Shown one piece after another: positions 5,404-32,056 of a stretch of 64,000 bases of DNA. The notes under the pieces were generated by a model, which had not been told where the DNA came from, ran no database searches, and was given only the letters and a program-made list of their open reading frames with translations. Every line of letters begins with the position of its first letter. The first letter of the stretch is position 1. This DNA is from Phycicoccus sonneratiae (GTDB lineage: Bacteria > Actinomycetota > Actinomycetes > Actinomycetales > Dermatophilaceae), in the NCBI RefSeq assembly GCF_016887965.1, contig NZ_JAFDVD010000016.1, positions 1-64,000 of the forward strand, in the 5' to 3' direction. The position numbers were made by a program, and so were the translations under genes.

Positions 5404-6873
<1,470 letters not shown>

Positions 6874-6983
6874 GGGAGGTCCTTTCGCGCGCGGCCGGGG
6901 CCGTCACACGCGGCCTCGCGGGTCCGTCGGCATGAAACCAACATCCCGGGCCGTTGGGGAGACCCCGTCGGCACAACGGAACG

Positions 6984-7006: not shown

Positions 7007-7028
7007 TGCATCGGGCCGGGGAAGGGGG

Positions 7029-8480: not shown

Positions 8481-8667
8481 GGGTGTGCTCCTTGCGATCC
8501 GGGCACCCACGGGCACGGGACGTGCCGAGGCGGGTGGGCGACCTTCGGAGTGTACGGAGTGATGCTGTGTCCCGGCTGCGAGTCGGACACGGGTGTGACG
8601 CGTGCCGCCGGGGCGGGCGACGCGCCGCGGGGCGCGACCGGGGCACCCGTCGGGGAGGATGGGGCGC

Positions 8668-10545
8668 ATGGGACGACGGGTGGCGTGGGTGGTGGGGGCG
8701 GTCCTCCTCGTGGGGCTGGTGGCCGGGGGCGGCTGGTGGTGGGTGCAGCGGGAGTCGGCGCGGGACGACGCCGCGACGGCGGCGGTGACGCGATACGTCG
8801 AGGGCTGGCGCGCCAAGGACCTCTCGCGGGTGCCGTTCGCCGGGTCGGGGGCGGCCGCCGACTTCGCCGCCGCCGTCAAGGGCCTGGGGTCGGCGGGGGT
8901 CACGGCCGAGCGGGGCGCGGTGCAGCGCGACGGCTCGGGCGCCACCTCGTCGGTCACCGTCACGTGGGCCCTCCCGGGGAAGGCGACGTGGCGGTACTCG
9001 ACGCCGGTGCGGCTCGTCGAGCGGGACGGCCGATGGCTCGTCACGGGCCCGGCGGACGGCTCGCCCTGGCACCCCGACCTACCCGCCGGCGAGACGATGG
9101 CGCTCGAGCGCAGCGCTCCCGCGCGCGGTGACCTGCTCGACCGCGACGGGAAGGCGCTCATGCCCCAGGGCACCGTCTACCAGGTGCAGCTCGATCCGGT
9201 GAAGGCCGACGAGGCCGACGCGGCCGCCGTCGAGCAGGTCACCGGCGTGACGAAGGGCTCGGTCGTCAAGGCCCTCGCCGACCGCAAGCGCACGGGGTCG
9301 CAGGCGCCCGTCCCGGTCATCACCTACCGCGAGTCCGACTACGCCCCGCGCAAGGCGCGCCTCGACGCGATCACCGGGGTCATCGCGCCCACGGCCACCC
9401 AGCCGCTCGGCCCGACCCGCACCTTCGGCCAGCCGCTGCTCGGCTCGGTCGGGGAGGTCACCGCCGAGATCGTCGAGAAGAGCGACGGGCGCTACGCCGC
9501 CGGCGACCGGGCCGGGCGCAGCGGCCTGCAGGCGCAGTACGACTCCACGCTCGCCGGCACGCCCGGGCTGGCCGTCACCACGAGCGGGGGCGCCACGCTC
9601 TTCGAGACCAAGGCCGTCGACGGGGCCGACGTCGCGACGACGCTCGCGCCGCGCGTGCAGAGCGCGGCCGAGAAGGCCCTCGCCGACGCGTCGCTCACCG
9701 TGCCGGGGGCCATCGTCGCCGTCGACGTGAAGACCGGCGAGGTCCTCGCGGCGGCCAACTCGCCGTCGAGCGGGTTCGACCGGGCGGTCACCGGCAAGTA
9801 CCCGCCGGGGTCGACCTTCAAGATCGCGTCGACGTACGCGTACCTGACGCGGGGCGTCACGACCCCGTCGAGCACCGTGCCGTGCCCGAAGACCATCACC
9901 GTCGACGGGCGCTCGTTCCGCAACTACGCCGGTGAGTCCATCCCCGGCTCGGTGCCCTTCGCGCAGGACTTCGCGCACTCGTGCAACACCGCCTTCATCT
10001 CGCTCTCGCAGAAGCTCGGGACGACCGACCTCACCACGGCGGCCAAGGCGCTCGGCATCGGTGCCGGGTGGGCCGACTCGCTCGGGGTGTCCGGCGCGTT
10101 CGACGGCAGCATCCCGGAGACCCGCAAGGGCACCGACCAGGCGGCGGCCGTCATCGGGCAGGCCCGCACCGAGGTCTCCCCGCTCGCGCTGGCGGTGATG
10201 TCGGGCAGCGTCGGCCGGGGGACCTTCCTCCCGCCGGTGCTCGTCCGGGGCGACACCGGCACCCCGCGGCCGACGCCGCTCGACGGCCAGGCCGTGGGGC
10301 AGCTGCGCTCGATGATGTCCGACGTCGTGACGTCGGGGACCGCGACGGTGCTGCGCGGGACGCCGGGGGGCACGGTGCGGGGCAAGACCGGCACCGCCGA
10401 CCACGGCGTCGACGAGAAACCCTACTGCTGGTTCACCGGGTACCAGGGCAGCGTGGCCTTCGCGGTGCTCGTCGAGGAGGGCGCGAGCGGTGGCACGGTC
10501 GCGGCACCGGTCGCCAAGCGCTTCCTCACCGCCCTCGCCGGCTGA
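8668..10545 (+). CDS. Class B penicillin-binding protein (peptidoglycan transpeptidase)
   Basis: 625 aa. One N-terminal membrane anchor (about residues 6-25) is followed by an NTF2-like MecA_N-type domain (VTRYVEGWRAKDLSRV...), a dimerisation region, and a transpeptidase domain. The domain has all three catalytic motifs: STFK (Ser382), SCN (Ser438) and KTGT (Lys573). It crosslinks peptidoglycan outside the membrane. The NTF2-like N-domain resembles low-affinity PBPs such as PBP2a and enterococcal PBP5, as is usual for this actinobacterial group. The start is ATG 8668 with GGGGAGG nine bases upstream; an ATG at 8659 is too close to that site. Confidence 0.93.
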   Translation: MGRRVAWVVGAVLLVGLVAGGGWWWVQRESARDDAATAAVTRYVEGWRAKDLSRVPFAGSGAAADFAAAVKGLGSAGVTAERGAVQRDGSGATSSVTVTWALPGKATWRYSTPVRLVERDGRWLVTGPADGSPWHPDLPAGETMALERSAPARGDLLDRDGKALMPQGTVYQVQLDPVKADEADAAAVEQVTGVTKGSVVKALADRKRTGSQAPVPVITYRESDYAPRKARLDAITGVIAPTATQPLGPTRTFGQPLLGSVGEVTAEIVEKSDGRYAAGDRAGRSGLQAQYDSTLAGTPGLAVTTSGGATLFETKAVDGADVATTLAPRVQSAAEKALADASLTVPGAIVAVDVKTGEVLAAANSPSSGFDRAVTGKYPPGSTFKIASTYAYLTRGVTTPSSTVPCPKTITVDGRSFRNYAGESIPGSVPFAQDFAHSCNTAFISLSQKLGTTDLTTAAKALGIGAGWADSLGVSGAFDGSIPETRKGTDQAAAVIGQARTEVSPLALAVMSGSVGRGTFLPPVLVRGDTGTPRPTPLDGQAVGQLRSMMSDVVTSGTATVLRGTPGGTVRGKTGTADHGVDEKPYCWFTGYQGSVAFAVLVEEGASGGTVAAPVAKRFLTALAG

Positions 10546-10568
10546 GCACCCAACCGGACGACGACAAG

Positions 10569-10590
10569 TGACACATTCGTCGATTCCTGG
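10569..10590 (-). repeat. Dispersed 20-base motif, intergenic copy 1
   Basis: The minus strand reads AGGAATCGACGAATGTGTCA. The same motif occurs 61-63 bases away and five times inside the Fe-S reductase gene at 36.4-37.1 kb. It lies between the PBP stop and the cspA terminator. Confidence 0.75.
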
Positions 10591-10631
10591 ACACCCCAGC
10601 CCGCGGACCCGACGTCCCGCCGTCCACCAAA

Positions 10632-10653
10632 CGACACATTCGTCGATTCCTGG
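10632..10653 (-). repeat. Dispersed 20-base motif, intergenic copy 2
   Basis: Same orientation as copy 1, and identical over CCAGGAATCGACGAATGTGT; the final base of the 20-mer differs. The flanks CCAGGA are also conserved on one side. Confidence 0.75.
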
Positions 10654-10681
10654 ACGCGCCGCGCACCGGCCGGCGGACGCG

Positions 10682-10718
10682 GACGACCCCCGCCCGGCGG
10701 TGCCGGACGGGGGTCGTC
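10682..10718 (-). terminator. Terminator of cspA
   Basis: Arms at 10682-10697 and 10703-10718 (GACGACCCCCGCCCGG and its complement with one mismatch) enclose a 5-base loop, 24 bases beyond the cspA stop. Confidence 0.6.
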
Positions 10719-10741
10719 GCGAGGACTCGGGTGAACCCGGG

Positions 10742-10945
10742 TCAGATGGGGCGGACCTGGTCGGCCTGCGGGCCCTTCGGACCCTGGGTGACCTCGAACT
10801 CGACCCGCTGGGCCTCGTCCAGGCTGCGGTAGCCCTGGACGTCGATGGCGGAGTAGTGGACGAACACGTCCGGGCCGCCGCCGTCCTGGGCGATGAAACC
10901 AAAGCCCTTCTCGGCGTTGAACCACTTCACGGTGCCCTGTGCCAT
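10742..10945 (-). CDS. cspA: CspA family cold-shock protein
   Basis: 67 aa, the standard length of a single cold-shock domain. RNP1 (KGFGFI) and RNP2 (VFVHYSAI) are both intact, and the protein begins [15 protein letters not shown], as in most actinobacterial CspA proteins. It binds single-stranded RNA and DNA and melts mRNA structure in the cytoplasm. ATG 10945 is preceded by AGGAAG. A leader of roughly 127 bases with a perfect hairpin (10989-11011) lies between the putative promoter and the start, as is typical of temperature-controlled csp mRNAs. It is monocistronic, with its own terminator. Confidence 0.96.
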
Positions 10946-10988
10946 ATGGGGAGAACTTCCTTTACCTGTGTGCACTCGGCCGGTGCCC

Positions 10989-11011
10989 GTCGCATCGACC
11001 GTGGATGCGAC
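10989..11011 (-). promoter_or_regulatory. Leader hairpin of cspA
   Basis: GTCGCATC and GATGCGAC form perfect 8-base arms around a 7-base loop in the presumed cspA 5' leader, 44 bases before the start codon. Post-transcriptional control is inferred from the known behaviour of csp leaders. Confidence 0.45.
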
Positions 11012-11078
11012 TCCAGCCCCCCTGTGGCGCGAGGGTAGTTCGACCTTCGAGGTACTGCTGTTGCTGCAACCGCCAGCG

Positions 11079-11084
11079 AACCTA
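11079..11084 (-). promoter_or_regulatory. Putative -10 element of cspA
   Basis: The minus strand reads TGCTAGGTT, an extended -10 with TAGGTT as the hexamer. It would place the transcript start near 11072 and give a leader of about 127 bases. No convincing -35 is seen. Confidence 0.35.
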
Positions 11085-11139
11085 GCAGAGGTTGGTCGCT
11101 CTCACCGGTTGCGTGGCGCAGAGTCCACGAGGCGGGCAC

Positions 11140-11538
11140 TCAGGCGTCGGCGGCGGGCACGACGAGCACGTCGCAGTCGGCGTCCGCGAGGACTCCCGAG
11201 AGGGTCGAGCCCCCCGTTCCGACCCCGGCCGGCCGCCGCCTCCGGAGGCCGACGACGAGCAGCCGCGCGGAGCATCCCGCCGCCGCCTGCACGAGCTCGT
11301 CGGCCGGCGCGAGCCCGCGCGAGGGTTGCCGGACCTCGTGCGGCACACCGACGTCCGCGAGGCAGGCGCACAGTGCGTCGATGTCGCGCCGGTCGGCCAG
11401 ACCGCGCCGACGGGGTTCGGCATCGGTGCCGGCGTTGACCACGAGGAGCGGCTGCGCGGTGCGCGCCGCCTCGGCGACCGCGGCCTCGAGGGCGGCGAGG
11501 CCGTCGCGGCGCGGCACGTAGCCGACGACGATGGTCAT
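11140..11538 (-). CDS. Universal stress protein (UspA) family protein
   Basis: 132 aa with the single-domain USP pattern. It opens with a MTIVVGYVP strand, has a central Asp/Glu helix, and ends in a nucleotide-binding-like loop, VVGLRRRRP..GTGGSTLSGVL, then CDVLVVPA. The Gly spacing fits the ATP-binding USP subclass, although the G-2x-G-9x-G(S/T) motif is somewhat altered. ATG 11538 with GGAG upstream is preferred over the ATG at 11571. It lies alone between cspA and the sugar ABC operon. Function beyond stress-related nucleotide binding is unknown. Confidence 0.8.
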   Translation of the reverse strand: MTIVVGYVPRRDGLAALEAAVAEAARTAQPLLVVNAGTDAEPRRRGLADRRDIDALCACLADVGVPHEVRQPSRGLAPADELVQAAAGCSARLLVVGLRRRRPAGVGTGGSTLSGVLADADCDVLVVPAADA

Positions 11539-11635
11539 GGGCACTCCGGTGTGCGTGGGGGCAGGGGGCATCGCGTCCCGCGCGCGACGGCGGGACGGGG
11601 CGCCGCACCCCGCGCGGGGGTGCGGCGCCCGGCCG

Positions 11636-12466
11636 TCAGCCCGAGAGGGTCTTGGCGCCGGTCATGATCGCGACGCCCTCTCCCATGTCGTGCGACTGCG
11701 GGGTGATGACACCCGCGCAGCCCCCGAGCCGCTGGATGTGGATGCGGTCGGCGACGTCCCACACGTGCGGCATGTTGTGGCTGATGAGGATGACCGCGAG
11801 ACCGTTGTCCCGCAGCTGCTTCACCATGTCGAGGACCATCCCCGACTCCTTGACGCCGAGGGCCGCGGTCGGCTCGTCGAGCACGACGACCTTGGACCCG
11901 AACGCCGCCGCACGGGCGACCGCCACGGCCTGGCGCTGACCACCGGAGAGGGTCTCGACGGCCTGACCCATGTTCTGGATCGTCTGGATGCCGAGGTCCT
12001 GCACCGACTGGCCGGCCTCGCGCTCCATGCCGCCCTTGTCGAGCATCCGGAACACCGAGCCGAGGACGCCCTTGCGACGCGTCTCGCGACCGAGGTACAG
12101 GTTGCTCGCGATGTCGAGCGCGGGGATGACGGCCAGCTGCTGGTACACCGTCTCGATGCCGGCCTCGCGGGCGTCCTGCGGCCGCCGGAAGGTGACCGGC
12201 GAGCCCTCGAGCCGGATGCTGCCGGAGTCGGGCACGTAGGCGCCGGTGAGGCACTTGATGAGCGTCGACTTGCCGGCCCCGTTGTCGCCGATGACCGCGA
12301 GCACCTCGCCCTTGTAGAGGTCGAGGTTGACCCCGTCGAGGCCGACGACCCGCCCGAAGGTGATGACGAGCTCGCGCGCCGAGAGCACGGGCTCCGCGTC
12401 GTAGATGTGCCGCTTGGCCTCGGGGATGTGGTCGACCGCGAGGGGCAGCTTCTCCATGGTGCTCAC
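11636..12466 (-). CDS. Monosaccharide ABC transporter ATP-binding protein, single-domain FrcA type
   Basis: 276 aa with one ABC domain: Walker A GDNGAGKST, signature LSGGQRQAVAVARA, Walker B VVVLDEPTAAL and the switch His in ISHNM. Most CUT2 sugar importers (RbsA, XylG) carry two fused domains of about 500 aa. A single domain of this size is the FrcA (fructose/ribose/mannose) arrangement. The GTG start at 12466 overlaps the permease stop by four bases (GTGA), with AAGG upstream; ATG 12457 is the alternative. It is the last gene of the operon and energises the permease encoded just before it. Confidence 0.92.
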   Translation of the reverse strand: MSTMEKLPLAVDHIPEAKRHIYDAEPVLSARELVITFGRVVGLDGVNLDLYKGEVLAVIGDNGAGKSTLIKCLTGAYVPDSGSIRLEGSPVTFRRPQDAREAGIETVYQQLAVIPALDIASNLYLGRETRRKGVLGSVFRMLDKGGMEREAGQSVQDLGIQTIQNMGQAVETLSGGQRQAVAVARAAAFGSKVVVLDEPTAALGVKESGMVLDMVKQLRDNGLAVILISHNMPHVWDVADRIHIQRLGGCAGVITPQSHDMGEGVAIMTGAKTLSG

Positions 12467-13485
12467 GACTTGACCTTCCGGATCCACTGGTCGACGGCGA
12501 CCGCGACGACGATGAGCACGCCGATCGCGAGGACGCGCCACTGCTGGTTGACGCCGATGAGCGAGAGCCCGAAGTCGAACGTCTGGACGATGAGCGCCCC
12601 GATGAGGGTGCCGATGAGCCGGCCCCGCCCGCCGAAGAGGCTCGTGCCGCCGATGACGACCGCGGTGATGCTGTCGAGGTTCGCCGTCGGGACGGCGTTC
12701 GGCGTCGCCGAGCCGGCCCGTCCGATGAGGACCCAGCCCGCGATGCCGTAGATGAGGCCGGCGACGGTGTAGACGGCCAAGAGGATCCGCTTGCTCGGCA
12801 CACCGGACAGGCGGGCCGACTCGGCGTCGTCACCGACCGCGTACACGTAGCGCCCCCAGGCGGTCTGCGACAGCACGAAGGCCATCACCGCGTAGATGAG
12901 GACCACGACGACGATCCCCCAGGTGAGCCGGAACGCCCCGATGCCGAAGCCCTCGCCGAGGAAGTTGAGGATCCGCGGCAGGTGCTCGGCCTGGATGCTC
13001 GACCCGCCCGAGTAGAGCAGCGCGATGGCCGTGAAGATGCTCAGCGTGCCGAGCGTGACGATGAACGGGGGCAGGTTGATCCGCGTGACGAGCAGGCCGT
13101 TGAGCAACCCCGCGAGCGTGGCGAGCGCGATGCCGATCAGCAGCGCGAGCAGCCCGGGCATCCCCCCGTCCTTGGCGAGCGAGGCCATGACCATCATCGA
13201 GAGGATCATGATCGCGCCGACCGAGAGGTCGATGCCCGCCGTGAGGATGACCAGGGTCTGGCCGACCGCCAGCGCCGCGACGATCGCGGTCTGCTGCAAC
13301 AGGGTTCCCATCGCTCCGGCGGTGAGGAACAGAGGCGTCGCGATGAAGAAGGCGACGAACGTGATGAAGAGCAGCAGCAGCGGGCTGAGCCACGGGCGCT
13401 TGTGCAGGTGGTTCTGCAGCTGCTGGACCGGGGACTGCCGCCGCCGAGCGAACTCGGCGGCGGCAGCAGAGCCAGAGGCGGTCAT
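12463..13485 (-). CDS. Monosaccharide ABC transporter permease, FrcC/RbsC type
   Basis: 340-aa CUT2-family permease with eight to ten membrane segments. It has the family stretches LAVGQTLVILTAGIDLSVG, INLPPFIVTLGTLSIF and ITAVVIGGTSLFGGRG. The ATG at 13485 is two bases after the binding-protein stop, and the 3' end overlaps the ATPase start. Together the three genes form a sugar importer. The ligand is not certain. FrcC-type relatives take fructose, ribose or mannose. Confidence 0.94.
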   Translation of the reverse strand: MTASGSAAAAEFARRRQSPVQQLQNHLHKRPWLSPLLLLFITFVAFFIATPLFLTAGAMGTLLQQTAIVAALAVGQTLVILTAGIDLSVGAIMILSMMVMASLAKDGGMPGLLALLIGIALATLAGLLNGLLVTRINLPPFIVTLGTLSIFTAIALLYSGGSSIQAEHLPRILNFLGEGFGIGAFRLTWGIVVVVLIYAVMAFVLSQTAWGRYVYAVGDDAESARLSGVPSKRILLAVYTVAGLIYGIAGWVLIGRAGSATPNAVPTANLDSITAVVIGGTSLFGGRGRLIGTLIGALIVQTFDFGLSLIGVNQQWRVLAIGVLIVVAVAVDQWIRKVKS

Positions 13486-13487
13486 GC

Positions 13488-14594
13488 TCAGTTGCCCCAG
13501 CAGATGTCGGCACCCTTGGTCGAGTCGATGCTCTCGACCCCGTCGACCGGCTTGTCGGTGACGAGCGCGACGCCGGTGTCGAAGAAGTCGAGGCCCTCGG
13601 TGGTCTGCGGCTTCTCGCCGCCGCGGGCGATCTTCGCGATCGCCTCCATGCCGAGGGTCGCCATCTTCAGCGGGTACTGCTGGGCGGTGGCGCCGATGAC
13701 GCCGTCCTTGACCGACTTGACGCCGGCGCAGCCGCCGTCGACCGAGACGATGGTCGCGGTCTTGCCCGCGGCCTGGAGGGCGGCGTTGGCGCCGACCGCC
13801 GCCGGCTCGTTGATCGTGTAGACGAGGTTGATGTCCGGGTTCTTCGCGAGGCACTTCTCCATCGCGGAGCGGCCGCCGTCCTCGGCGCCGTTCGAGGCCT
13901 CGTTGCAGACGATCGTGTAGTCGCCGCCCTTGCCGGCGGTGTACTTGCCGGTGGGGGCCTCGTCGCCGTTCTTCTTGCCGTCGGCGACATCGATGCCCAT
14001 GCCCTCGAGGAAGCCCTGGTCGCGGTTGTAGTCGACCGAGACGATCTTGTCGTTGAACAGGTCGAGGAGGGCGATGACCGCCGCCTTGCCGTCGAGCGTC
14101 GCCGCGGCCCACTGGCCGTCGAGCTTGCCCGCGGAGCGGTTGTCGGTGGCGAAGGTGATGTCGACGGTGTCGGCCGGGTCCGGCGGGGTGTCGAGGGCGA
14201 TGACGTAGAGGCCGGCGTCGCGGGCCTTCTTGATGGCGGCGTTGACGCCGGTGGACATCGGGGTGATGAGGATCCCCTTGTCCTGGCGGGCGATCGCGTT
14301 CTCGATGGCCGTGATCTGGCCCTGGTCGTCACCCTCCTGCTTGCCGGAGGCCACGGTGAGCTTGACGTCGTTCTTCGCGGCGTCGGCCTTCGCGCCGTTC
14401 TGCATGGCGACGAAGAAGGGGTTCGAGGAGTCCTTCGTGATGAGGGTGACGCCGACGGTGGACTCCCCTCCGCTCCCGGAGTCGGAGTCGGAGGAGCGGT
14501 TGCAGGCGGTGGCGGTGAGGGCGAGGCCGACGATGCCGACCGAGGCGACGACACGGCGGGCCGTGCGCGGCGAGGGGACCTGACGGATGTGCAT
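13488..14594 (-). CDS. Sugar ABC transporter substrate-binding lipoprotein, FrcB/RbsB type
   Basis: 368 aa. The signal peptide ends in the lipobox ALTATACNRS (Cys31), followed by a Ser/Asp/Gly linker and a periplasmic-binding-protein-like fold of the ribose/fructose class (VGVTLITKDSSNPFF, GILITPMSTG, VIALDTPPD). AAAGGAG precedes ATG 14594 at slightly long spacing. It is the first gene of the operon. The promoter TTGACC-17-TACAAA and a perfect 14-base operator lie directly upstream, so the LacI regulator encoded divergently very probably represses it until sugar is present. Confidence 0.93.
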   Translation of the reverse strand: MHIRQVPSPRTARRVVASVGIVGLALTATACNRSSDSDSGSGGESTVGVTLITKDSSNPFFVAMQNGAKADAAKNDVKLTVASGKQEGDDQGQITAIENAIARQDKGILITPMSTGVNAAIKKARDAGLYVIALDTPPDPADTVDITFATDNRSAGKLDGQWAAATLDGKAAVIALLDLFNDKIVSVDYNRDQGFLEGMGIDVADGKKNGDEAPTGKYTAGKGGDYTIVCNEASNGAEDGGRSAMEKCLAKNPDINLVYTINEPAAVGANAALQAAGKTATIVSVDGGCAGVKSVKDGVIGATAQQYPLKMATLGMEAIAKIARGGEKPQTTEGLDFFDTGVALVTDKPVDGVESIDSTKGADICWGN

Positions 14595-14645
14595 GATCCG
14601 TGACTCTCCTTTGAGTACTGGGCTGGGTCGAACGACGCTGCCTCG

Positions 14646-14659
14646 TGACAACGTTGTCA
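14646..14659. promoter_or_regulatory. LacI-type operator O1
   Basis: TGACAACGTTGTCA is a perfect 14-base palindrome with the central CG typical of LacI-family sites. It sits just downstream of the predicted -10 of the binding-protein promoter, where a bound repressor would block initiation. Confidence 0.85.
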
Positions 14660-14666
14660 GGAACCA

Positions 14667-14695
14667 TTTGTAGCGTTCACTTGCGCGCAGGTCAA
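14667..14695 (-). promoter_or_regulatory. Promoter of the frc-like operon
   Basis: On the minus strand TTGACC (14695-14690) is followed after 17 bases by TACAAA (14672-14667), a near-consensus vegetative promoter. Its predicted start point abuts operator O1. Confidence 0.7.
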
Positions 14696-14710
14696 GACAT
14701 CCGTTACACA
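14681..14710 (+). promoter_or_regulatory. Possible promoter of the LacI regulator gene
   Basis: TTGCGC (14681-14686) and TACACA (14705-14710) are 18 bases apart. The predicted transcript start falls at about 14717, next to the GTG at 14718, which would make the mRNA leaderless. It overlaps the opposing promoter. Confidence 0.35.
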
Positions 14711-14717
14711 TCGTGAT

Positions 14718-15761
14718 GTGGCCGTGACATCGTTGTCAGATCCGGGACGCTCCCGCGCGACGATGCGCGACGTCGCCGCCCTGGCCGGCGTCAGCCTCAA
14801 GACCGTGTCCCGGGTCGTCAACGAGGAGGCCGGCGTCTCCCCCGACGTCCGCGAGCGGGTCGGTGCCGCCGTGCGCCGCCTCGACTACCGCCCGAACCTC
14901 GCCGCGAGCAACCTCCGGCGCACCGGCGCCCGCACCGGCCTCATCGGCGCGCTCGTGCAGGACCTCTCGAACTCGTTCTCCGCGGGGGTGCTCCGCTCGC
15001 TCGAGGACATCGCCCGGGCGCACCGCACCGCCGTCCTCGCCGCCAGCCTCGACGAGGGCGTCGACCGCGAGCAGGCGATGGTCCACGACCTCGTCACCCG
15101 GCGCGTCGACGGCCTCGTCCTCATGCCGGCCAGCCAGCGCCAGGACTACCTCGTCGCCGAGCTCCGCACCGGCACACCGGCGGTCTTCGTCGACCGCCCG
15201 CCGCGTGGGGTCGACGCCGACTCCGTCGTCGTCGACAACCTCCTCGGTGCCCGGCTGGCCACCGAGCACCTCCTCGACCACGGGCACCGGCGCATCGCGG
15301 CGCTCTTCCACCTGCCGCAGATCCCCACCGCCCACGAGCGCATCGCCGGATTCACGTCGGCGCACACCGACCGCGGGGTGCGCCCCGACGACCGGCTCGT
15401 CGTCGAGGGCATCACCTCCACCGACGAGGCGACCGAGGTCGTGCACCGGCTGCTCGACCTCGACGACCCGCCGACGGCGATCTTCGCCGGCCGCAACATC
15501 CTCGCCTCGGGCGCCGTCCGGGCCCTCGCCGAGCGCGGGCTGCGGCGCTCGGTGGCGCTCGTCAGCTTCGACGACTTCCCGATGGCCGACCTGCTCGACC
15601 CCGGGCTCACCGTCGTCCGCCAGGACGTCTCGCGCATCGGCCGCACGGTGGCGCAGATGCTCTTCGAGCGGATCGGCGGCGAGAGCTCGCCGCCGCGGCA
15701 CGTCGTCATCGAGCCGACCCTCGTCGTCCGCGGCTCGGGCGAGATCCCGCCCCCGGCCTGA
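14718..15761 (+). CDS. LacI family transcriptional regulator
   Basis: 347 aa. The N-terminal LacI helix-turn-helix and hinge (MRDVAALAGVSLKTVSRVV...RLDYRPNLAASNLR) is followed by a periplasmic-binding-protein-like effector domain (GLIGALVQDLSNSFSAG, FVDRPPRGVDADSVVVDN). GTG 14718 lacks a ribosome site but fits a leaderless transcript. ATG 14763, which starts exactly at the helix-turn-helix, is the main alternative and would leave operator O2 in the leader. It diverges from the sugar ABC operon and is flanked by the operators O1 and O2, which implies repression of that operon and autoregulation. Confidence 0.93.
   Translation: MAVTSLSDPGRSRATMRDVAALAGVSLKTVSRVVNEEAGVSPDVRERVGAAVRRLDYRPNLAASNLRRTGARTGLIGALVQDLSNSFSAGVLRSLEDIARAHRTAVLAASLDEGVDREQAMVHDLVTRRVDGLVLMPASQRQDYLVAELRTGTPAVFVDRPPRGVDADSVVVDNLLGARLATEHLLDHGHRRIAALFHLPQIPTAHERIAGFTSAHTDRGVRPDDRLVVEGITSTDEATEVVHRLLDLDDPPTAIFAGRNILASGAVRALAERGLRRSVALVSFDDFPMADLLDPGLTVVRQDVSRIGRTVAQMLFERIGGESSPPRHVVIEPTLVVRGSGEIPPPA
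14725..14738. promoter_or_regulatory. LacI-type operator O2
   Basis: TGACATCGTTGTCA differs from the perfect palindrome O1 by one base and lies 79 bases from it, about 7.5 helical turns. It overlaps the 5' end of the regulator gene, which fits autoregulation or looping between the two sites. Confidence 0.7.
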
Positions 15762-15779
15762 GCGTCGGCGCCGTGACGG

Positions 15780-16736
15780 TCAGGCGCGCAGGTGGCGGGC
15801 GCGGGTCATGAGGTAGACCCCGAAGGCCACGAGCCCGACGGAGACGACCGCGAGCGCCCACCGCCCGGCCGGGGCCTGCTGGAGGAAGTGCAGCGCGCCG
15901 TCGATGCCGGTGGAGGCCGTGACGTCGTGCGTGCGGGCGGCGATGACGAACAGCAGCCCGACGACGGCGAAGGCGACGCCGCGGGTCACGAAGCCGAGGA
16001 TGCCCACCGAGACGAGGAGGCGCCCGGGTGGCCGGGCGAGGTCGAGGAGGAAGTCGCGCGAGAGGCCGGACCAGATGCTGAAGACGCCGACCCCGGCGAC
16101 CGCGATGCCGGTGCCGACGACGAGCAGCACCCCGCCCGGCAGGCCGAGGAGCGAGCGGGTGATGCCGACGGTGGAGTCGCGGCTCGTCTGGCCGGCGCCG
16201 ATGGCGAAGGCCGCCGCGGCCCAGGCGACGGTGGCGTAGGCGATGCCGTCGGCCGCGTGCTCGAGCCGCTTGAGCCGGGTGTGGCAGTGCCGGCCGGTGA
16301 CCGCCCGCGCGAGGTTCCACACGGTGACGACGGCGAACCCGACGCACGAGACCCAGAGCACCGCGCGCCCGCCGAGCGTCGTCGCGATGGCCGTGAGCGC
16401 ACCGGACTCGTCGGCCGTCGTGGTGCTGCGCCCGATCCAGACGACCTGGAGGCCGGCCCAGCCCATCGCGACGTGGAGCAGTCCGTCGAGGAGGAACCCG
16501 AAGCGGGCGCCGGCGCTGACCGCCCGGTGGGTCTCGGCGACCTCGGCCGCGCGGGCCGTCGTCTCCACCGCCTGCCGGGTCACCTCGCCGGCCGCCTCGA
16601 CCGCGTCGTGCACGGTGTCGACGGCGTTGTGCACCGTCTCGACGACGGGTGCGGCGACCTCCTCGACCTCGTGGACGACCGCGGCGAGCGGACCCTCGGC
16701 GGGTGCCTCGTCCGTCGGCTCGGCGGGGCGGCTCAC
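15780..16736 (-). CDS. DUF1206 domain-containing membrane protein
   Basis: 318 aa. An acidic, helical N-terminal extension of about 70 residues (VVHEVEEVAAPVVETVHNAV...) precedes a six-helix membrane region arranged as three two-helix repeats, the DUF1206 pattern (ARFGFLLDGLLHVAMGW, HAADGIAYATVAWAAAAF, GFVTRGVAFAVVGLLFV). Its function is unknown. The GTG at 16736 overlaps the cupin gene stop by four bases (GTGA), so the two are coupled. The coiled-coil-like N-terminal extension is longer than usual for the family. Confidence 0.85.
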   Translation of the reverse strand: MSRPAEPTDEAPAEGPLAAVVHEVEEVAAPVVETVHNAVDTVHDAVEAAGEVTRQAVETTARAAEVAETHRAVSAGARFGFLLDGLLHVAMGWAGLQVVWIGRSTTTADESGALTAIATTLGGRAVLWVSCVGFAVVTVWNLARAVTGRHCHTRLKRLEHAADGIAYATVAWAAAAFAIGAGQTSRDSTVGITRSLLGLPGGVLLVVGTGIAVAGVGVFSIWSGLSRDFLLDLARPPGRLLVSVGILGFVTRGVAFAVVGLLFVIAARTHDVTASTGIDGALHFLQQAPAGRWALAVVSVGLVAFGVYLMTRARHLRA

Positions 16737-17119
16737 CGGTGCGGGGGCGGGGCGTCCGCGACGTTGACGGTCGGGATGCCCGTGCCGGCGCGGGCGATGA
16801 CGGCGAGCGAGGGCTCCCGGCCCGGGTTCGACTCGCGGTGCACGGTGAAGGCCGGCACGTGGACGTAGCAGCCGGCCGCGGCGTCGACCCAGCCCTCGAC
16901 CCCCTCGCACTCCAGGCGCAGGACGCCCCGGACGACGTAGAGGACGCTGGTGTTGGCGTCGTGGTGGTGCCACCCCGAGACGGCGCCGGGGTCGGTGACG
17001 ACCTGTCCGGCCCAGAGTCCCGGCACCTCGAGGGCGCGGCGGCGGAACATCCCGGACGTTGGGTCGGCCTCGACGAGCTCGTCGTCGCGCACGACGCGCA
17101 CCGGCTCCCACTCGACCAT
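16733..17119 (-). CDS. Cupin domain-containing protein
   Basis: 128 aa with one cupin barrel: motif 1 GWHHHDANTSVLYVVRGVL gives the metal-binding His cluster, and motif 2 is YVHVPAFTVHRE. It could be a small metal-dependent enzyme or a sensor. The ATG at 17119 has no strong ribosome site. It is the first gene of a two-gene unit with the DUF1206 protein. The hairpin element at 17152-17227 lies just upstream. No specific reaction can be assigned. Confidence 0.85.
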   Translation of the reverse strand: MVEWEPVRVVRDDELVEADPTSGMFRRRALEVPGLWAGQVVTDPGAVSGWHHHDANTSVLYVVRGVLRLECEGVEGWVDAAAGCYVHVPAFTVHRESNPGREPSLAVIARAGTGIPTVNVADAPPPHR

Positions 17120-17151
17120 CCGGCCACGGTAGCCCCGGCGGCCCCGCGTCC

Positions 17152-17227
17152 CCGACTTATTGCCCATCCCCCACTCCGGAAGCGCTCCCAACGGCCGCCA
17201 GGAGGTGGGTGATGGGCAATGAGTCGG
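17152..17227. repeat. Dispersed inverted-repeat element, copy A
   Basis: Left arm CCGACTTATTGCCCATCCCC and right arm complement CCGACTCATTGCCCATCACC continue into CCAC and are nearly identical. The loop is about 20 bases. The same arm core, GACTnATTGCCCA, forms the ends of the element at 37316-37386. It lies between the cupin gene and tRNA-Ser. Confidence 0.75.
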
Positions 17228-17328
17228 CGCAAGCGACGGGCGTGGGACTCCGGCTCTCACTCCGTTCGAGCCTCCCCGTCATCCCCCGCCCTCCGAGCGC
17301 CCAGGGCGCTGCGCGCCCGCGGGCGCAG

Positions 17329-17415
17329 CGGAGGGCGTGGGATTCGAACCCACGATGACGTTGCCGCCATAGCGGTTTTCAAGACCGCCGCACTAGGCCA
17401 CTATGCGAGCCCTCC
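17329..17415 (-). tRNA. tRNA-Ser (UGA)
   Basis: 87 bases with the acceptor stem GGAGGGC/GCCCTCC, a G discriminator and no encoded CCA. The anticodon stem-loop is GCGGT-CTTGAAA-ACCGC with anticodon TGA at 17381-17379. A long variable arm typical of serine tRNAs and an intact T arm (GTGGGTTCGAATCCCAC) are present. Its 5' 43 bases are duplicated at 25223-25265, marking this gene as the integration site of the adjoining island. Confidence 0.97.
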
Positions 17416-17416
17416 A
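17373..17416. other. Left attachment site, inside tRNA-Ser
   Basis: 44 bases identical to 25223-25266. It covers the tRNA from the anticodon stem to the 5' end. Flanking bases differ on both sides (17372 versus 25222, 17417 versus 25267), which defines the repeat exactly. Confidence 0.85.
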
Positions 17417-17819
17417 ACGAGCATCTCCGCAGGTCAGCGGTGCACTCGCGTCGCGCGACACCGTGATGACTGGCCGGCGTACCACCGTGGTACCACCAAC
17501 CGCTGCAACCAGCTTCCGGTGTCGCACTCCCAGCCTAGAGGCAGCCCAGCACTGAGTCCGGCTGCCACGATGGACGTGCGGAGAGCCCCTCACGGCACGG
17601 CCATCTCATCGAGTGGTCCACCCGCCTCGACCCGCAAGGGCCGGTTAGGGCGACAACCACCCACGGATCGCCGACGCCGATGTCCGCCCTGCTCCGACCC
17701 GGGCCGATACCCTCCCCGCCCTCACCTGGCACTTGGCCGTTGCGGCCGTGGCTGTCCCGGCATCAACTGTCGGAACCATGCGGCACAGTGCTGGCAGAGA
17801 GCACAGACAGGAGCCTCGC
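17416..17819. other. Non-coding left end of the island
   Basis: About 400 bases between the attachment site and the first island gene. Apart from the 20-base arm-type repeat at 17478-17497 I see no gene or clear promoter. Open frames here lack coding character. Confidence 0.5.
17478..17497 (+). repeat. Arm-type repeat near the left end
   Basis: CGTACCACCGTGGTACCACC matches 25112-25131 at 19 of 20 positions in the same orientation. It contains the direct repeat GTACCACC and the palindrome GGTACC. A recombinase or excisionase binding site is inferred from its position 62 bases inside the attachment site. Confidence 0.6.
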
Positions 17820-25815: not shown

Positions 25816-26181
25816 ATGGGCAAGCTGTCCTTCCTCGCCGGCATGGCCGCCGGCTACGTCCTCGGGGCCAAGGCGGGGACCCAGCGCTACGAGCAGATCC
25901 GCCGGACGTCCGGCAAGGTCTGGAACTCCGACCCGGTGCAGAAGCAGGTCGCCCAGGCCAAGGAGGCCGCGCGCACCAAGGCCGCTCCCGTCGTCGCCGA
26001 CATGGTGGCCGATGCCGCCCGGGCGACCGGGGAGAAGCTGCGCCAAGGACGCACCATCGCCTCCGAGGCCATCCACCACGACGCGCACCGCCCCGCGGAC
26101 GGCACCGGTGCGCCCGACACGAACGGGACGCACTCCGACGCCTGGGCCGCCGCCACGAGGCCGCCGGGCTCCTCCGACTGA
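25816..26181 (+). CDS. YtxH-like small membrane-associated protein
   Basis: 121 aa. The N-terminal amphipathic helix GKLSFLAGMAAGYVLGAKAG is followed by TQRYEQIRR, a pattern very common in actinobacterial YtxH-like proteins. An Ala/Lys-rich helical middle and a disordered tail complete it. AAGGAG lies before ATG 25816. A hairpin at 26199-26228 probably ends its transcript. The function is unknown; the family is linked to the cell envelope and stress. Confidence 0.8.
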   Translation: MGKLSFLAGMAAGYVLGAKAGTQRYEQIRRTSGKVWNSDPVQKQVAQAKEAARTKAAPVVADMVADAARATGEKLRQGRTIASEAIHHDAHRPADGTGAPDTNGTHSDAWAAATRPPGSSD

Positions 26182-26415: not shown

Positions 26416-26526
26416 AGCCGTTGCCCCTGGGTCTCGAGGAGCAGGAGCGCGGCCGCGCCCCCCTGATACGTCCCCGTCGAGATTTTCCGTCGCGCCGGAT
26501 GTATCAGCGCACCCACCCCGGGCTCC

Positions 26527-26545
26527 TGTTCGTCGAGCACGAACA
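26527..26545. promoter_or_regulatory. Dyad 2, candidate operator of the subtilase-CHAT operon
   Basis: TGTTCGTCGAGCACGAACA has perfect 7-base arms and a 5-base spacer, 50 bases upstream of the subtilase ATG and within the presumed promoter. Its half-sites point opposite to the LexA pattern GAAC-N4-GTTC, so this is not a standard SOS box. Confidence 0.55.
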
Positions 26546-26594
26546 TCACTACGCTGGGCGCGACTGCCACGCCCTGCACCGTCAGGAGCCCTGC

Positions 26595-28403
26595 ATGAGC
26601 GCCCGTCCCGACAAGCACCCGCCGCGGGAGACGCACGACCGGCCGGTCGACGACGCCTCCCCCCTGCCGCCGATGCCGGTGCTCTCACCGCTGCTCGCGC
26701 GGCGGTTGCGGGCCCGGGTCCTCGACCCCGAGACCGCCGTGCTCGCCCCCGGCCAGCCGGTCCCGCTGCCGACGGTCTACGTCTCCGACACCCTCCTCGT
26801 CCGCGACGTCGTCGACGACGGGCTCTCCGACGCCGGTCGCACCCGGGTCGACGAGCTGCTCGCCTTCGCGAAGGGCCTGCCGGACCCGCTCCACCTCGAG
26901 GTGCTCGGCGCCGCCCTCGCCATCCCCTACACGGGCGACACCCCCCAGAGCCTCGGCGGCGACGCGCGGGTCACCCTCACCCGGGTGCGCCTCGGCCGCG
27001 GCGACTCCCAGGCCGGCAAGATGCCCGACGCCTGGCGCTTCCTCCAGACGGCGATCACCGCTCCGAGCGAGCGGGCCACCCAGCTCTACGACAAGCTCGG
27101 ACTCGGCCGGCGCGACTGCCCCGAGCCCACCGACGACGCCGAGCGCTCCCGCCGCGCACGCCGCGAGGCCCGGGCCCGCAGCATGGCCGGCGGCGTCTTC
27201 GTCGAGCACCTCCTCACCGCCGGCGGCGGGGTCTGGGGTGGTGGCGGCGGCGTCTGGGGCGGCGGTGGCGGCGTCTGGGGTGGCGGCGGTGGCGTCTGGG
27301 GCGGCGGTGGCGGCGTGTGGGGCGGCGGCGGCCTGCTCGCCGAGTACGGCACGCCCGGCATCGGCGGCCGCTCGCCGGTCGTCTGGTCGGCCCCGGACCC
27401 GCGCCTCGCCGCGCGCCCGGGTGCCGAGCGACCGGTCGTCGCCGTCCTCGACACCGGCCTGGGCCGCCACGACTGGTACCCCGAGGAGGACGAGGGCGCC
27501 ACCGCGGACACGTGCTCCGGCGACTGCCCCGGCGCCCACCGCCGGGTCGGCACGGCCGGCGCCGAGATCGGCCTCTGGCACGAGCCGTCCCGCGACCCCG
27601 AGGTCACCGGCGTCCTCTTCGACGACGTCAACGGCCTCCTCGACTCCCTCTGCGGGCACGGCACGTTCGTCGCCGGCGTCGTCCGCCAGCGCTGCCCCGA
27701 GGCGGTGATCCTCGCGGTCCCGGTCATGGCGTCCGACGGCGCGGCGCTCGAGGAGGACGTCCTGCGCGCCCTCAGCCAGCTGCTCGACCGGCACCGGGCC
27801 GCCAAGGCCAAGCCGGGCAGCATCACGCACGGCGTCCTCGACGTCGTCAACCTCTCGCTCGGCTACTACCACGAGACCCCGGACGAGGCCGACGACACCG
27901 CGCTCGCGGCGCTGCTCCAGCAGTTCGCCGACGAGGGGATCGCGGTCGTGTGCTGCGCGGGCAACGACTCCACCCGGGCCCGCTTCTTCCCGGCCGCCTT
28001 CGCCCGTCCTGACGTGGACGGGCTCGTGGGCGTCGGGGCGACGAACCCCGACGACCGCAGCGTGGCGCTGTTCTCGAACGTCGGCGACTGGGTGACGGCC
28101 CACGCCCCCGGTGCCGGGGTCGTCAGCACCGTGCCGACGACCCTGTCGGGCAGCCTCGGCCGCACCGTCTACGTCGAGGGCACCGACCGCGGGCCCCGCG
28201 CCGGCGTCGACTTCGACGACTTCAGCTCCGGGTTCGCCGTGTGGAGCGGGACCTCGTTCGCCTCGCCGTGGATCGCCGGCGAGATCGCGGCCCAGATCGT
28301 CGCGACGGGCACCTCGACCACCGGCGACGAGGGTCGTGCGCTCTCGGCCGCCGCCGAGGTCGTGGCCCGGGCGAACGCGCGCTGGACGGAGCAGGAGCCG
28401 TGA
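26595..28403 (+). CDS. Cytoplasmic S8 family serine peptidase (subtilase) with VWGGGGG repeats
   Basis: 602 aa with no signal peptide or membrane helix. An N-terminal domain of about 200 residues resembles no fold I know. A Gly-rich segment of five VWGGGGG-type heptads (about residues 210-246) follows, then the subtilase domain. The domain has Asp286 (VVAVLDTGLG), His355 (CGHGTFVAG), oxyanion Asn457 (AGNDS) and Ser554 (SGTSFASP), all intact. Cysteines are unusually frequent around the active site (TCSGDCPG, CCAGN). ATG 26595 has CAGGAG seven bases upstream. It is the first of four overlapping genes with an ECF sigma factor, a small domain protein and a CHAT protease, which suggests regulated intracellular proteolysis. 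Confidence 0.92.
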   Translation: MSARPDKHPPRETHDRPVDDASPLPPMPVLSPLLARRLRARVLDPETAVLAPGQPVPLPTVYVSDTLLVRDVVDDGLSDAGRTRVDELLAFAKGLPDPLHLEVLGAALAIPYTGDTPQSLGGDARVTLTRVRLGRGDSQAGKMPDAWRFLQTAITAPSERATQLYDKLGLGRRDCPEPTDDAERSRRARREARARSMAGGVFVEHLLTAGGGVWGGGGGVWGGGGGVWGGGGGVWGGGGGVWGGGGLLAEYGTPGIGGRSPVVWSAPDPRLAARPGAERPVVAVLDTGLGRHDWYPEEDEGATADTCSGDCPGAHRRVGTAGAEIGLWHEPSRDPEVTGVLFDDVNGLLDSLCGHGTFVAGVVRQRCPEAVILAVPVMASDGAALEEDVLRALSQLLDRHRAAKAKPGSITHGVLDVVNLSLGYYHETPDEADDTALAALLQQFADEGIAVVCCAGNDSTRARFFPAAFARPDVDGLVGVGATNPDDRSVALFSNVGDWVTAHAPGAGVVSTVPTTLSGSLGRTVYVEGTDRGPRAGVDFDDFSSGFAVWSGTSFASPWIAGEIAAQIVATGTSTTGDEGRALSAAAEVVARANARWTEQEP

Positions 28404-28978
28404 CCGAGCACACGGCCGAGGGGCTCGCCACCCGCGCGGCCGGCTGCTTCCGGGCCTACGTCGACGGCGACGCCGCGGCGATGGACCGCCTCGTCGACCT
28501 GCTGACGCCGATCCTCTGGCACACCGCCCGCGCCCAGGGCGCCGGTGAGGCCACCGCGCAGGACGCCGTGCAGACCGCGTGGCTGCGGCTCGTCGAGCGG
28601 GCGGGCACCATCCGCGAGGCGCAGGCGGTGATGGGCTGGCTCATCGTCACCGTCCGCCGCGAGTGCTGGCGGCTCCAGCGGGCCCAGTCGCGCACCGACC
28701 ACGAGCTCGACGAGACGCGTCCCGACCCCCGGCCCGACCCGGCGACGGTCACCGTCCGCCACGCCGAGCACATCCTCCTGTGGTCGCACGTCGAGAAGCT
28801 CGACGCGCGGTGCCAGGCGCTGCTGCGCGTCATCGCCTTCGCCGACCGACCCGACTACGCCGCCGTCTCCGAGGCGCTGAAGATGCCCCTCGGCAGCATC
28901 GGACCCACCCGCGGACGCTGCCTGGCCAAGCTCCGGGCGTCCCTGACCGATGACCCCGCCTGGGGAGGTGCCCTGTGA
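28400..28978 (+). CDS. ECF-type RNA polymerase sigma factor
   Basis: 192 aa. Region 2 (about residues 25-95) includes ATAQDAVQTAWLRLVERAG and MGWLIVTVRRECWRLQR. Region 4 (about 125-180) includes LDARCQALLRVIAF and YAAVSEALKMPLGSIGPTRG, matching the sigma-70 region 4 helix-turn-helix (PxGSIGPTRxRCLxKLR). The GTG at 28400 overlaps the subtilase stop (GTGA), and its own stop overlaps the next gene in the same way. It is embedded between two proteases, so its activity is probably controlled by proteolysis or by the 162-aa protein encoded next. Confidence 0.92.
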   Translation: MTEHTAEGLATRAAGCFRAYVDGDAAAMDRLVDLLTPILWHTARAQGAGEATAQDAVQTAWLRLVERAGTIREAQAVMGWLIVTVRRECWRLQRAQSRTDHELDETRPDPRPDPATVTVRHAEHILLWSHVEKLDARCQALLRVIAFADRPDYAAVSEALKMPLGSIGPTRGRCLAKLRASLTDDPAWGGAL

Positions 28979-29463
28979 ACCCCGACCACCTCGCGACACA
29001 GCCGCTCGACGACGTCGACGTGCACGTGCTCGACACGATCGCGGACATCCTGCGAGCCGGTGACCCCGTCCCGGCCGGCCTCGTCGACGAGGTGAAGTTC
29101 GCCCTGACGATGCAGGCCCTGCACGCCGAGGTCGCCGAGCTGCAGGCCCTCGGGGTCGACACCGCCGCCGCCCGCTCCGCCGAGTACAGCCACACCCAGA
29201 CCCTCACCTTCGGGGCCGAGGCCCTGTCGGTGATGATCACGCTCTCCCCGCTCGACGACGACACGGTCCGCATCGACGGCTGGGTCACCGGCCACGACGG
29301 GACCGTGAGCATCGAGCTCCGGGCCGGCACCCGCACCCTCGGCGCCACCACCGACGCCGACGGCCGCTTCATCATCGACCCGGCCCCCCGCGGGCTCGTC
29401 CGGTTCGTCTTCACCCCCGAGGGCGAGGTGCGTCCGGTCATCACCCCGACCGTCGAGATCTGA
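28975..29463 (+). CDS. Small protein with carboxypeptidase-regulatory-like domain
   Basis: 162 aa. The N-terminal half is helical and acidic (DDVDVHVLDTIADILRAG, then LVDEVKFALTMQALHAEVAE), in the style of short anti-sigma or sigma-binding helices. The C-terminal half is a small beta-sandwich (VSIELRAGTRTLGATTDADG, then RFIIDPAPRGLVRFVF), as in carboxypeptidase regulatory-like domains. The GTG at 28975 overlaps the sigma stop. No membrane segment is present. A role as a cytoplasmic anti-sigma factor or protease substrate is inferred from gene order. No zinc-binding anti-sigma motif is seen. Confidence 0.85.
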   Translation: MNPDHLATQPLDDVDVHVLDTIADILRAGDPVPAGLVDEVKFALTMQALHAEVAELQALGVDTAAARSAEYSHTQTLTFGAEALSVMITLSPLDDDTVRIDGWVTGHDGTVSIELRAGTRTLGATTDADGRFIIDPAPRGLVRFVFTPEGEVRPVITPTVEI

Positions 29464-29614
29464 GGTCCCCGTTACCGACCTGCACCACCACGTCGCACAC
29501 CTCGTCGAGGAGGCGGTCCTCGCCAACGCCGCAGGTGCGCCCGCCCGTGCCGAGGCCCGGCTGCGCCGTGCCCACCGGCGGCTCGACCGCGAGGACGACG
29601 GCCCGGAGGTCGCG

Positions 29615-32056
29615 GTGCTGCGGGCGCGGGTGCACGTCACGCACGCGGTCTCCCGGGTCCAGCGCGGCGACCGGCGGGGCGCCTTCGAGCTGCTCGACGA
29701 GGCCGACCGGCTGCTCGTCGGGGCGCCGGCCAACCAGGTGTCCTCCCTCGCGGTCGTGCAGCGCGCCGGGCTGCACGGCCGGGTCGGCGAGTGGCACGCC
29801 GCCGCCGCCCTCCTCGAGGCGCTGCCGCTGACCCGGCACGTGGCGCCGCGCACCCGCTGCCTCATCCACCTCAACCTCGGTCTCTGCTACCAGTTCCTCG
29901 GTCGGTACGGCGAGAGCGACGCCCGGCTGCTGCGGGCCCAGCAGCACGCCGTCGCCCTCGGCTACCCCGACCTCGCGGCCGCCGCCGTGCACAACCGCGG
30001 GCGCCTGCACCTCCTCCTCGGCGACCTGCCGCGGGCCCTGGCCCTCCTCTCGGAGGCCGGGGAGCACGCCGACGAGGTGCTGCCCCCCGGCGCCCTCCTC
30101 GACCGCGCCCGCGTGCTCGCCGAGGCCGGCCTCATCGACCGGGCCCTCGAGACCCTCGAGGACGGCGCCCGGGCGGCCCGCGCCGGTGGCATCGCGCACG
30201 ACCTCGCCGAGGCCGACCTCGAGCGCGCCCGGCTCGCCCTGCTGCGCGAGGACCCCGCCGCCGCGCGAACCCTCGCCGCCCGCGCCGAACGACGCTTCCG
30301 GCACCGGTCGGAGGAGGCGTGGGCGGTCCGGGCCACGCTGCTCCGGCTGCAGGCCGAGGTGCTCACGGGGCGTCGGCCCCAGGCGGTCGCCACCGCCCTC
30401 ACCGAGCTGGCCGACGGGCCGGCCCGGACCAGCGCGGTCGGAGCGGAGGCCGCGGTCCTCGCGGCCGAGGCAGCCGCTCGCGTGGGTGACCTCGACGAGG
30501 CCCGGCGCCAGCTGGCCCGCCCCGACGTGCGCCGCACGGCGTCCTTCCCGCTGCGGCTGCACCGGACGCTGGTCCTCGCCGAGGTGCACGCGGCCGAGGG
30601 CCGCACCGACCTCGTCCGGCGCGAGCTGCGCCGCGGGGTCCAGCGCCTCGTCACCGAGCAGGCCCGACACACCTCCCTCGACTCGCGCACGGCCGTCGCT
30701 CTGCACAGCCGGCGGCTCCGCGAGGCCCACCTCGACCTCGCGCTCGGGCGCGCCTCCGCCAGCCAGGTGTTCGACGCCACCGAGCTGTGGCGCGGTGTCT
30801 CGCACCGGCTCCCGCCGTTGTCGGCGCCGCCCGACGCCGAGCTCGCCCGCCTCACGGCGGATGCCCGGCGCCTGCACACCGAGGCCGCCGAGACGTCCGA
30901 CCCCCGGCGCCGGCGGGCCCTGGAGGTGGCCGCCCGCGACGCCGAGCGGGCCGTGGCCCGCCGCGACTGGTCGCACGCCGGGGCCGGCACCGACGGCTCG
31001 GGCGAGCAGCTCTCCCCGGTCACCCTCGCCGCCCTGCGCCCGGTCCTGCGCGAGGCGCGGGCCGGGCTGCTCAGCCTGTTCATCCACCGTGACGACCTGT
31101 GGGCGGTCACCGTCACCCCGGACGAGACGCGGCTGACGCGGGTCGTCGACCTGCCGGCGGTCGTCGAGGCGGCGCAGCGGCTGCGCGCGGACCTCGTGAC
31201 CCGGCGGCTGGCCGTCGGCACCCCGATGGAGGCGGTCGTCCGCCGGTCGATGGAGCGCAGCGCCGCGATGCTCGGCGCGCTGCTCGGACCCACCGTCCCC
31301 CGGGCCCACCGGCTCGTCGTCATCCCCTCCGCGGCGCTCGCCTCCATCCCCTGGCGCCTCGTCCCGGGCATCGCCGGCCACCTCGTCACCGTCGCCCCGT
31401 CGGCGACCTTCTGGGCACGGCGCTCACGACGGGCCGAGCCCGGCCCGGCCCCCCGGGTCGCCGCCCTGGCCGGACCGGGGCTGGCCCGCGCGCACCACGA
31501 GGTCGCCGATGTCGCGGCCGCCTGGCACGACCCGCTCGCCGACGTCGCGTCGGGTGCCGTGGCCGACGGCCGGCAGCTGCGCGCCGCCCTCCGCAGCGCC
31601 GCGGTGGTGCACGTCGCGGCGCACGGGGTGCACCAGGACGAGAGCCCGCTCTTCTCCTCGCTGCTCATGCGTGACGGCCCGGTCTTCGCGCACGAGCTGC
31701 AGCGCGGCGGTGTGCGAGCCGACCACGTCGTGCTGTCCTCGTGCGAGGTCGGCCGCACGCACGTGCGCCCGGGCGACGAGCCCCTCGGCCTCACCGCGAG
31801 CCTGCTCGCCACCGGCGTCCGCTCGGTCGTGGCCGCCGTCGGGCCGGTGGGCGACGACGACGCGCACGCCGTGATGTCGACCTACCACCGGCTCCTCGCG
31901 CGCGGGATGGACACCGCGGAGGCCCTGGAGATCGCGAGCGCCGGTGTCGACGACGGACGGCTGTTCTGTGCGTACGGGGCCGACTGGGCGGCCCCGTGGC
32001 CGGGCGACGAGCCGGCTCAGATGAAGATGGCGGGCTCGGCGAAGAGCGCGTCGTAG
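29615..32056 (+). CDS. TPR-repeat CHAT domain (caspase-like) protease
   Basis: 813 aa from the first standard start, GTG 29615. The first 480 or so residues are tandem TPR-like helix pairs. The rest is a CHAT domain with the catalytic dyad His670 (HVAAHGVHQ) and Cys710 (LSSCEVG), both intact, and the later [14 protein letters not shown] strand. Coding character and the same frame continue upstream to 29471, where GTTACC follows GAGG at the right spacing. The true N-terminus is therefore probably about 48 residues longer, with an abnormal start codon. CHAT proteases with TPR sensors are known from gRAMP/Craspase and other conflict systems. Here the partner genes are a subtilase and a sigma factor. 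The 3' end overlaps cysE by 40 bases, tail to tail. Confidence 0.9.

Follow-up and report, generated by a model that had tools for sequence, protein, structure and literature searches.

The stretch analysed here, the window, comprises 64,000 nucleotides from Phycicoccus sonneratiae (NZ_JAFDVD010000016.1, positions 1–64,000), and all coordinates refer to it. Four genes on the forward strand encode a subtilase of family S8, an extracytoplasmic function (ECF) sigma factor, a small protein of 162 residues and a protein that joins tetratricopeptide repeats (TPR) to a caspase-like CHAT protease domain (Table 1). The block is real and conserved, and its subtilase carries a tandem peptide array. Peptidase_S8, Sigma70_r2 (1e-6) and CHAT score above their Pfam cut-offs in the window proteins, and the sigma factor scores 50.2 bits with the generic sigma70-ECF model TIGR02937 (cut-off 42.9). 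TPR_12 and CarboxypepD_reg (0.0028, in the small protein) fall below their own cut-offs. The first-pass annotation, made from the sequence alone, had the genes overlapping by four bases or abutting, from position 26527 onwards. The 4-base overlaps are present at the S8/sigma and sigma/small protein junctions, but the small protein and TPR-CHAT genes are 7 bases apart, and the S8 gene begins at about 26595.

Table 1. Features of the locus, with the basis of each assignment. pLDDT, predicted local distance difference test score; pTM, predicted template modelling score.
Feature	Coordinates	Strand	Basis
Divergent copy of promoter motif	26443..26469	-	divergent copy in 45/72 S8-headed loci
Likely sigma-type operon promoter, GTATC-N16-GCTCCT	26501..26527	+	motif in 55/72 S8-headed upstream regions
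S8 subtilase zymogen (predicted), 602 aa	26595..28403	+	Pfam 2.7e-15; model mean pLDDT 74.3, pTM 0.80
I9-like prodomain, about residues 57–209	26763..27221	+	
VWGGGGG tandem array, 5.3 copies, residues 210–246, pro/mature junction	27222..27332	+	
Subtilase catalytic domain	27378..28394	+	Pfam, structure model
ECF sigma factor	28400..28978	+	Pfam; region 4 stretch GSIGPTRGRCL
Small protein, candidate cytosolic anti-sigma	28975..29463	+	structure model; beside sigma in 172/178 loci
TPR-CHAT protein	about 29471..32056	+	Pfam CHAT and TPR_12
TPR region of TPR-CHAT, limits approximate	29471..31150	+	TPR_12 5.5e-6; N-terminal half covaries with array unit
CHAT protease domain, His718 and Cys758	31292..31942	+	Pfam 4.3e-31

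Homologous loci were picked by the small protein alone, so that co-occurrence of the other three genes was not imposed. The small protein is present in 60 of 119 genomes of the family, and all four genes occur in each of the best 30 of 70 matches (the window and 29 other loci), so the arrangement did not arise by chance. Among 45 named loci, which include Phycicoccus, Knoellia, Terrabacter, Humibacillus, Intrasporangium, one Nocardioides and several metagenome-assembled genomes, 44 hold the four genes (CHAT is clipped by a contig end in three), and the remaining one, L070, stops before CHAT. With a wider profile, 111 of 345 sampled genomes of the class gave a match to the small protein, and so did 37 of 100 genomes in one family and 9 of 199 in another. 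From part of these wider matches, mostly the best scoring, 178 distinct systems were compared after removal of duplicates by small-protein sequence. The sigma gene adjoins the small-protein gene on the same strand in 172 of them. Within 7 kb, S8 is found in 148, CHAT in 146, both in 143 and neither in 27. The proteases that the first-pass annotation placed on either side of the pair are thus frequent but not obligatory neighbours. Some of the 27 loci meet contig ends; 17 are complete stretches of 14.5–16 kb with sigma factor and small protein. The gene order is S8-sigma-small-CHAT in 75 systems and sigma-small-S8-CHAT in 40, and CHAT is divergent from S8-sigma-small in 14, so the linkage survives rearrangement. 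Sigma factor and small protein are the most constant pair, even where the order has changed or the proteases are absent. Both proteases had been described as catalytically intact, and loss was not seen in the homologues: the S8 Asp, His, Asn and Ser (D286, H355, N457 and S554 in the window) are kept in 145 of 145 aligned copies, with two further copies gapped among the 147, and the CHAT His and Cys in 133 of 133 copies having both positions, out of 146. The two outcomes that the first-pass annotation had named as refuting it, lack of co-occurrence in other genomes and frequent loss of catalytic residues, were both not observed. A search of viral contigs for relatives of the small protein found none, and PADLOC models (E up to 0.01) matched none of the four proteins.

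The first-pass annotation could name no described system with this exact set. The set has been described before, as the genomic context of the ECF54 group, credited to Huang 2015 and Casas-Pastor 2021 as cited in the review PMC8999054. Section 3.3 of that review, in the part available, gives carboxypeptidase, subtilase and CHAT proteins as this context and mentions a proposal of control by proteolysis without an anti-sigma factor. The ‘carboxypeptidase’ is probably the present small CarboxypepD_reg-like protein and not an enzyme.

The model of the small protein (pLDDT 88.8, pTM 0.55) has three N-terminal helices (residues 3–63) and a seven-strand C-terminal β-sandwich (76–148). At E up to 1, 19 of the 24 members scanned resemble CarboxypepD_reg. 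A fold search returned generic β-sandwiches, none at E ≤ 0.001, and a sequence search of the PDB gave nothing below E 0.27. Because it is the most constant neighbour of the sigma factor, even where the proteases are missing, we read the small protein as a candidate cytosolic anti-sigma factor or adaptor, in line with the earlier suggestion that it may hold the sigma factor.

The subtilase is modelled as a zymogen, with a prodomain fold and a predicted disordered array at the processing junction; pLDDT is below 50 over residues 214–264, which overlap the array. Arrays are present in 44 of the 46 S8 proteins of the first set, both misses being truncated, and in 103 of the 147 distinct S8 proteins of the compared systems. 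The 103 exclude L228 (a masked run) and the second module of L095 (paired with the neighbour’s S8). They hold 80 different units, with a period of 6 residues in 81, 7 in 19, 9 in two and 5 in one, in 3 to 12.7 copies; examples are GYASGV, GWGDGI, VGQWGS, PFTRGA, NPFHST, NPAYQG and PVTSGH. Units vary even within one genus, Knoellia having GWGDGI, GYGDGI, GWGQGI and GYGQGV. When neighbouring units are compared codon by codon, the residue is the same in 2898 pairs, of which 1054 show a synonymous difference; 1215 would be expected under independent codon draw from the usage of the gene. Only nine pairs are nonsynonymous, a count biased low at the array edges as arrays were detected by amino-acid matching. 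Near-saturated synonymous sites, identical residues and change of the unit within a genus together argue that recent DNA duplication or conversion alone is insufficient to explain the arrays. A second array of the window unit was not found in the window genome with a pattern that needs two neighbouring W positions and that a lone copy would escape, and there were none in the three subtilases examined of the seven others in this genome. L095 (positions 6243–17681) holds two tandem modules with different units, PFTSGG in seven copies and HPMYDG in four, a natural test of pairwise specificity.

That the TPR region reads the array was set down as a hypothesis ahead of the covariation test. Set A comprised 40 loci (the window and 39 named loci) and set B 41 other loci, most of them from other families and a few of them diverged systems from within the family; no loci were shared, and eight loci close to set A had been removed from set B (49 to 41). 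In set A, the distance between units tracks TPR residues 1–280 best (partial r 0.294, given the eight other segments). The same segment is again top in the pruned set B (r 0.208; 0.307 for the unpruned 49 loci). As Mantel permutations are liberal, evolution of the units was simulated on trees of the loci. This gave p values of 0.015 (set A) and 0.040 (set B) for TPR 1–280, with the others of the nine segments all at least 0.05 in both sets. Mean unit distances in the simulations were slightly low (2.35 against 2.77 and 3.48 against 3.65 observed). In both separate sets, these comparisons are suggestive of covariation between unit identity and the N-terminal, TPR-containing half of TPR-CHAT. 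A sliding-window version of the analysis was set aside: it peaks in the TPR region, but also gives a negative value of similar size (-0.293). The predicted start of TPR-CHAT at 29471 is GTT, just 3′ of a Shine-Dalgarno-like GAGG, and the first standard start codon in this frame is the GTG at 29615. At its 3′ end (32017–32056), the gene overlaps tail-to-tail a minus-strand open reading frame (ORF) that by eye is cysE-like (serine acetyltransferase), followed by a cysK-like ORF.

A conserved, promoter-like motif precedes the operon and some unlinked genes, putative phospholipases among them. The pattern GTATC-spacer-NCTC[CT], with spacers of 15–18, lies upstream in 55 of 72 S8-headed and 41 of 71 sigma-headed loci, and a spacer of 16 predominates (53 and 36 of these carriers, respectively). 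With this spacer, the motif matches 209 times in the system loci and its reversed form 6 times. The window genome (4.1 Mb) has 13 exact sites for GTATC-N17-CTCCT, two of them at this locus, and none for the reversed control. The region 4 stretch GSIGPTRGRCL of the sigma factor is invariant in 27 aligned copies, which fits a conserved promoter; GTATC-N17-CTC[CT] may be the one that this sigma factor uses. Seven ORFs downstream of the motif were scanned in the window genome; four have no Pfam match, and the other three resemble a patatin-like phospholipase (3.4e-17), a PKD protein (7.2e-13) and, just below cut-off, a VWA-like protein. An unlinked gene for a product of 147 residues has homologues in 6 of the 119 family genomes, and in all six the motif lies upstream with a spacer of 16 or 17. 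Homologues of a Zn-dependent phospholipase C-like protein from another genome (PF00882, 4.8e-8) occur in 10 of the 119; the motif stands upstream of six of these, and a close seventh (L335) lacks it. The small protein is co-present in 6/6 and 9/10 of these genomes, respectively, compared with 60/119 overall. The minus-strand motif of the window has no convincing gene downstream, where candidate ORFs look spurious, and it faces the 3′ end of a forward ORF of 121 residues (25816–26181). Elsewhere, in nine Terrabacter/Humibacillus-type loci (L040, L043, L047, L049, L062, L068 and three more), the divergent motif precedes a protein that by eye resembles a secreted peptidoglycan-binding lipoprotein. 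In the large genomes of L190, L195, L196, L198, L199 and L201, the same motif is followed by what by eye is a large regulator of ATPase type whose C-terminus is LuxR-like.

The idea that regulon proteins generally carry the unit was rejected: of 103 loci, only L061 has its own unit elsewhere than in the array, and foreign-unit tests gave 3 of 2060. The exact window unit is absent from 12 promoter-site stretches of the window genome, where at most 6 of its 7 letters agree, in Gly-rich frames, and the 11 other regulon loci checked contain no exact copy of their own unit. In L061 (3912–5453, minus strand), a protein without Pfam match, trypsin-like by eye, lies behind the divergent promoter motif and ends in four copies of GWGDGI, the unit of the adjoining subtilase array. 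Five homologues of this protein (L036, L037, L063, L073 and L109) have no tail repeats.

We tentatively favour, as possible rather than probable, an ECF54-like signalling module in which the array or its peptides would be read by TPR-CHAT, the small protein removed and the sigma factor freed. We infer the reading and cutting steps as follows. The small protein would hold the sigma factor via its N-terminal helices. Processing of the subtilase at the junction would expose the array or cut it into 6–7-mers, and the TPR region would bind the units, so that CHAT is docked or activated. CHAT (or the subtilase) would then cleave the small protein, and the free sigma factor would transcribe its own operon, in positive feedback, together with the effectors. 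The first-pass annotation had proposed protease cleavage of the small protein and release of the sigma factor; its observation of the gene set is confirmed and its interpretation partly supported. It was silent on the heptapeptide array, the two divergent promoters and the unlinked regulon. A more specific version, somewhat doubtful, is a private intracellular peptide code: a peptide peculiar to the lineage would be repeated identically in a zymogen and read by the matching TPR of a caspase-like partner, which would release the sigma factor. The code would be renewed in all copies together, as in a pheromone precursor, and in L061 it may also tag a protein behind the same motif.

Several observations weigh against this signalling module. 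Searches of Pfam and the PDB gave no anti-sigma match (ASD/ZAS) for the small protein. In 44 of the 147 S8 proteins no array was recognised (a few are truncated and one is masked), including all 11 genomes of a large-genome family (f5), so the array is not needed by every member. The covariation is modest in size. In 14 of 200 simulations for set A and 50 of 200 for set B, the highest value among the nine segments was at least as large as the TPR value observed, and placebo loops reached a partial r of 0.38 across proteins. By permutation, other segments also give signals, each in one set. In set A these are sigma region 4 (p 0.038) and, under restricted permutation, S8 segments (p 0.014–0.044). 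In set B, sigma region 2 ranks second before pruning (r 0.187, p 0.02), and the C-terminal half of the small protein shows up after it (r 0.10, p 0.003). For the regulon, the exact pattern exceeds the reversed control in just 17 of 59 family genomes, and genome-wide enrichment is clear for the window genome only.

The alternative that survives best, though we consider it unlikely, is that the proteases are outputs, the sigma factor and small protein switching on S8, CHAT and phospholipases in an autoregulated conflict or cell-death operon. The motif ahead of S8 and the patatin-like and Zn-dependent phospholipase C-like proteins behind it would agree with this. The promoter is, however, equally explained by positive feedback, and the standalone sigma and small protein loci have no linked protease output. 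Slightly less probable is that the array is a flexible linker or self-assembly segment, its homogeneity arising from self-packing and the TPR covariation from residual phylogeny. The low pLDDT of the array, the Gly-rich units of one group and the modest covariation are in keeping with such a role, but identical residues at near-saturated synonymous sites are not expected of a plain linker, and Pro/aromatic units elsewhere have no obvious assembly chemistry in common with Gly units. Degradation of the sigma factor itself by the proteases, which would keep it silent, with the small protein as an accessory, is improbable: it is put forward as a proposal in section 3.3 of PMC8999054 (available part), but there are loci with neither protease nearby, 17 of them in complete stretches.

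The module is widespread in the class, and in the available part of PMC8999054 its mechanism is a proposal only. The array offers a direct handle on the favoured signalling module: a short peptide that can be exchanged among species, a domain that may be its receptor, a putative inhibitor of the sigma factor, a reporter promoter and a few candidate genes of the regulon. If the reading is true, a bacterial protease cascade would contain a ligand–receptor pair that differs between lineages.

Among known systems, subtilisin zymogens with an I9 prodomain and PCSK9 share the arrangement of prodomain and catalytic domain; unlike them, the present subtilase has a tandem array inserted at the processing junction. 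The TPR domains of RRNPP quorum sensors bind short linear peptides. Their output is DNA binding or Rap, whereas here it would be CHAT, and peptide binding is putative. The type III-E CASP/Craspase system (Csx29, Csx30, CASP-sigma) offers a precedent: it likewise combines an ECF sigma factor with an inhibitor protein and a TPR-CHAT protease, with sigma motifs at its own locus, and the available part of PMC10028731 gives evidence for a model in which cleavage of Csx30 by the TPR-CHAT protein Csx29 relieves inhibition of the ECF sigma factor. The sensor there is RNA-guided, whereas here a subtilase carries an array, and the window TPR-CHAT is not of Csx29 type (NF041237, E 0.024, 13.5 bits, cut-off 300). 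A search of the open-licence literature found no paper on the array, the covariation of unit and TPR, the promoter or the regulon. Also close is the ECF54 group, whose subtilase, CHAT and sigma factor recur here beside the CarboxypepD_reg-like protein; the available part of PMC8999054 does not mention the array, promoter or regulon. What is new relative to the ECF54 context is the lineage-specific, internally uniform array units and the candidate regulon defined by the promoter.

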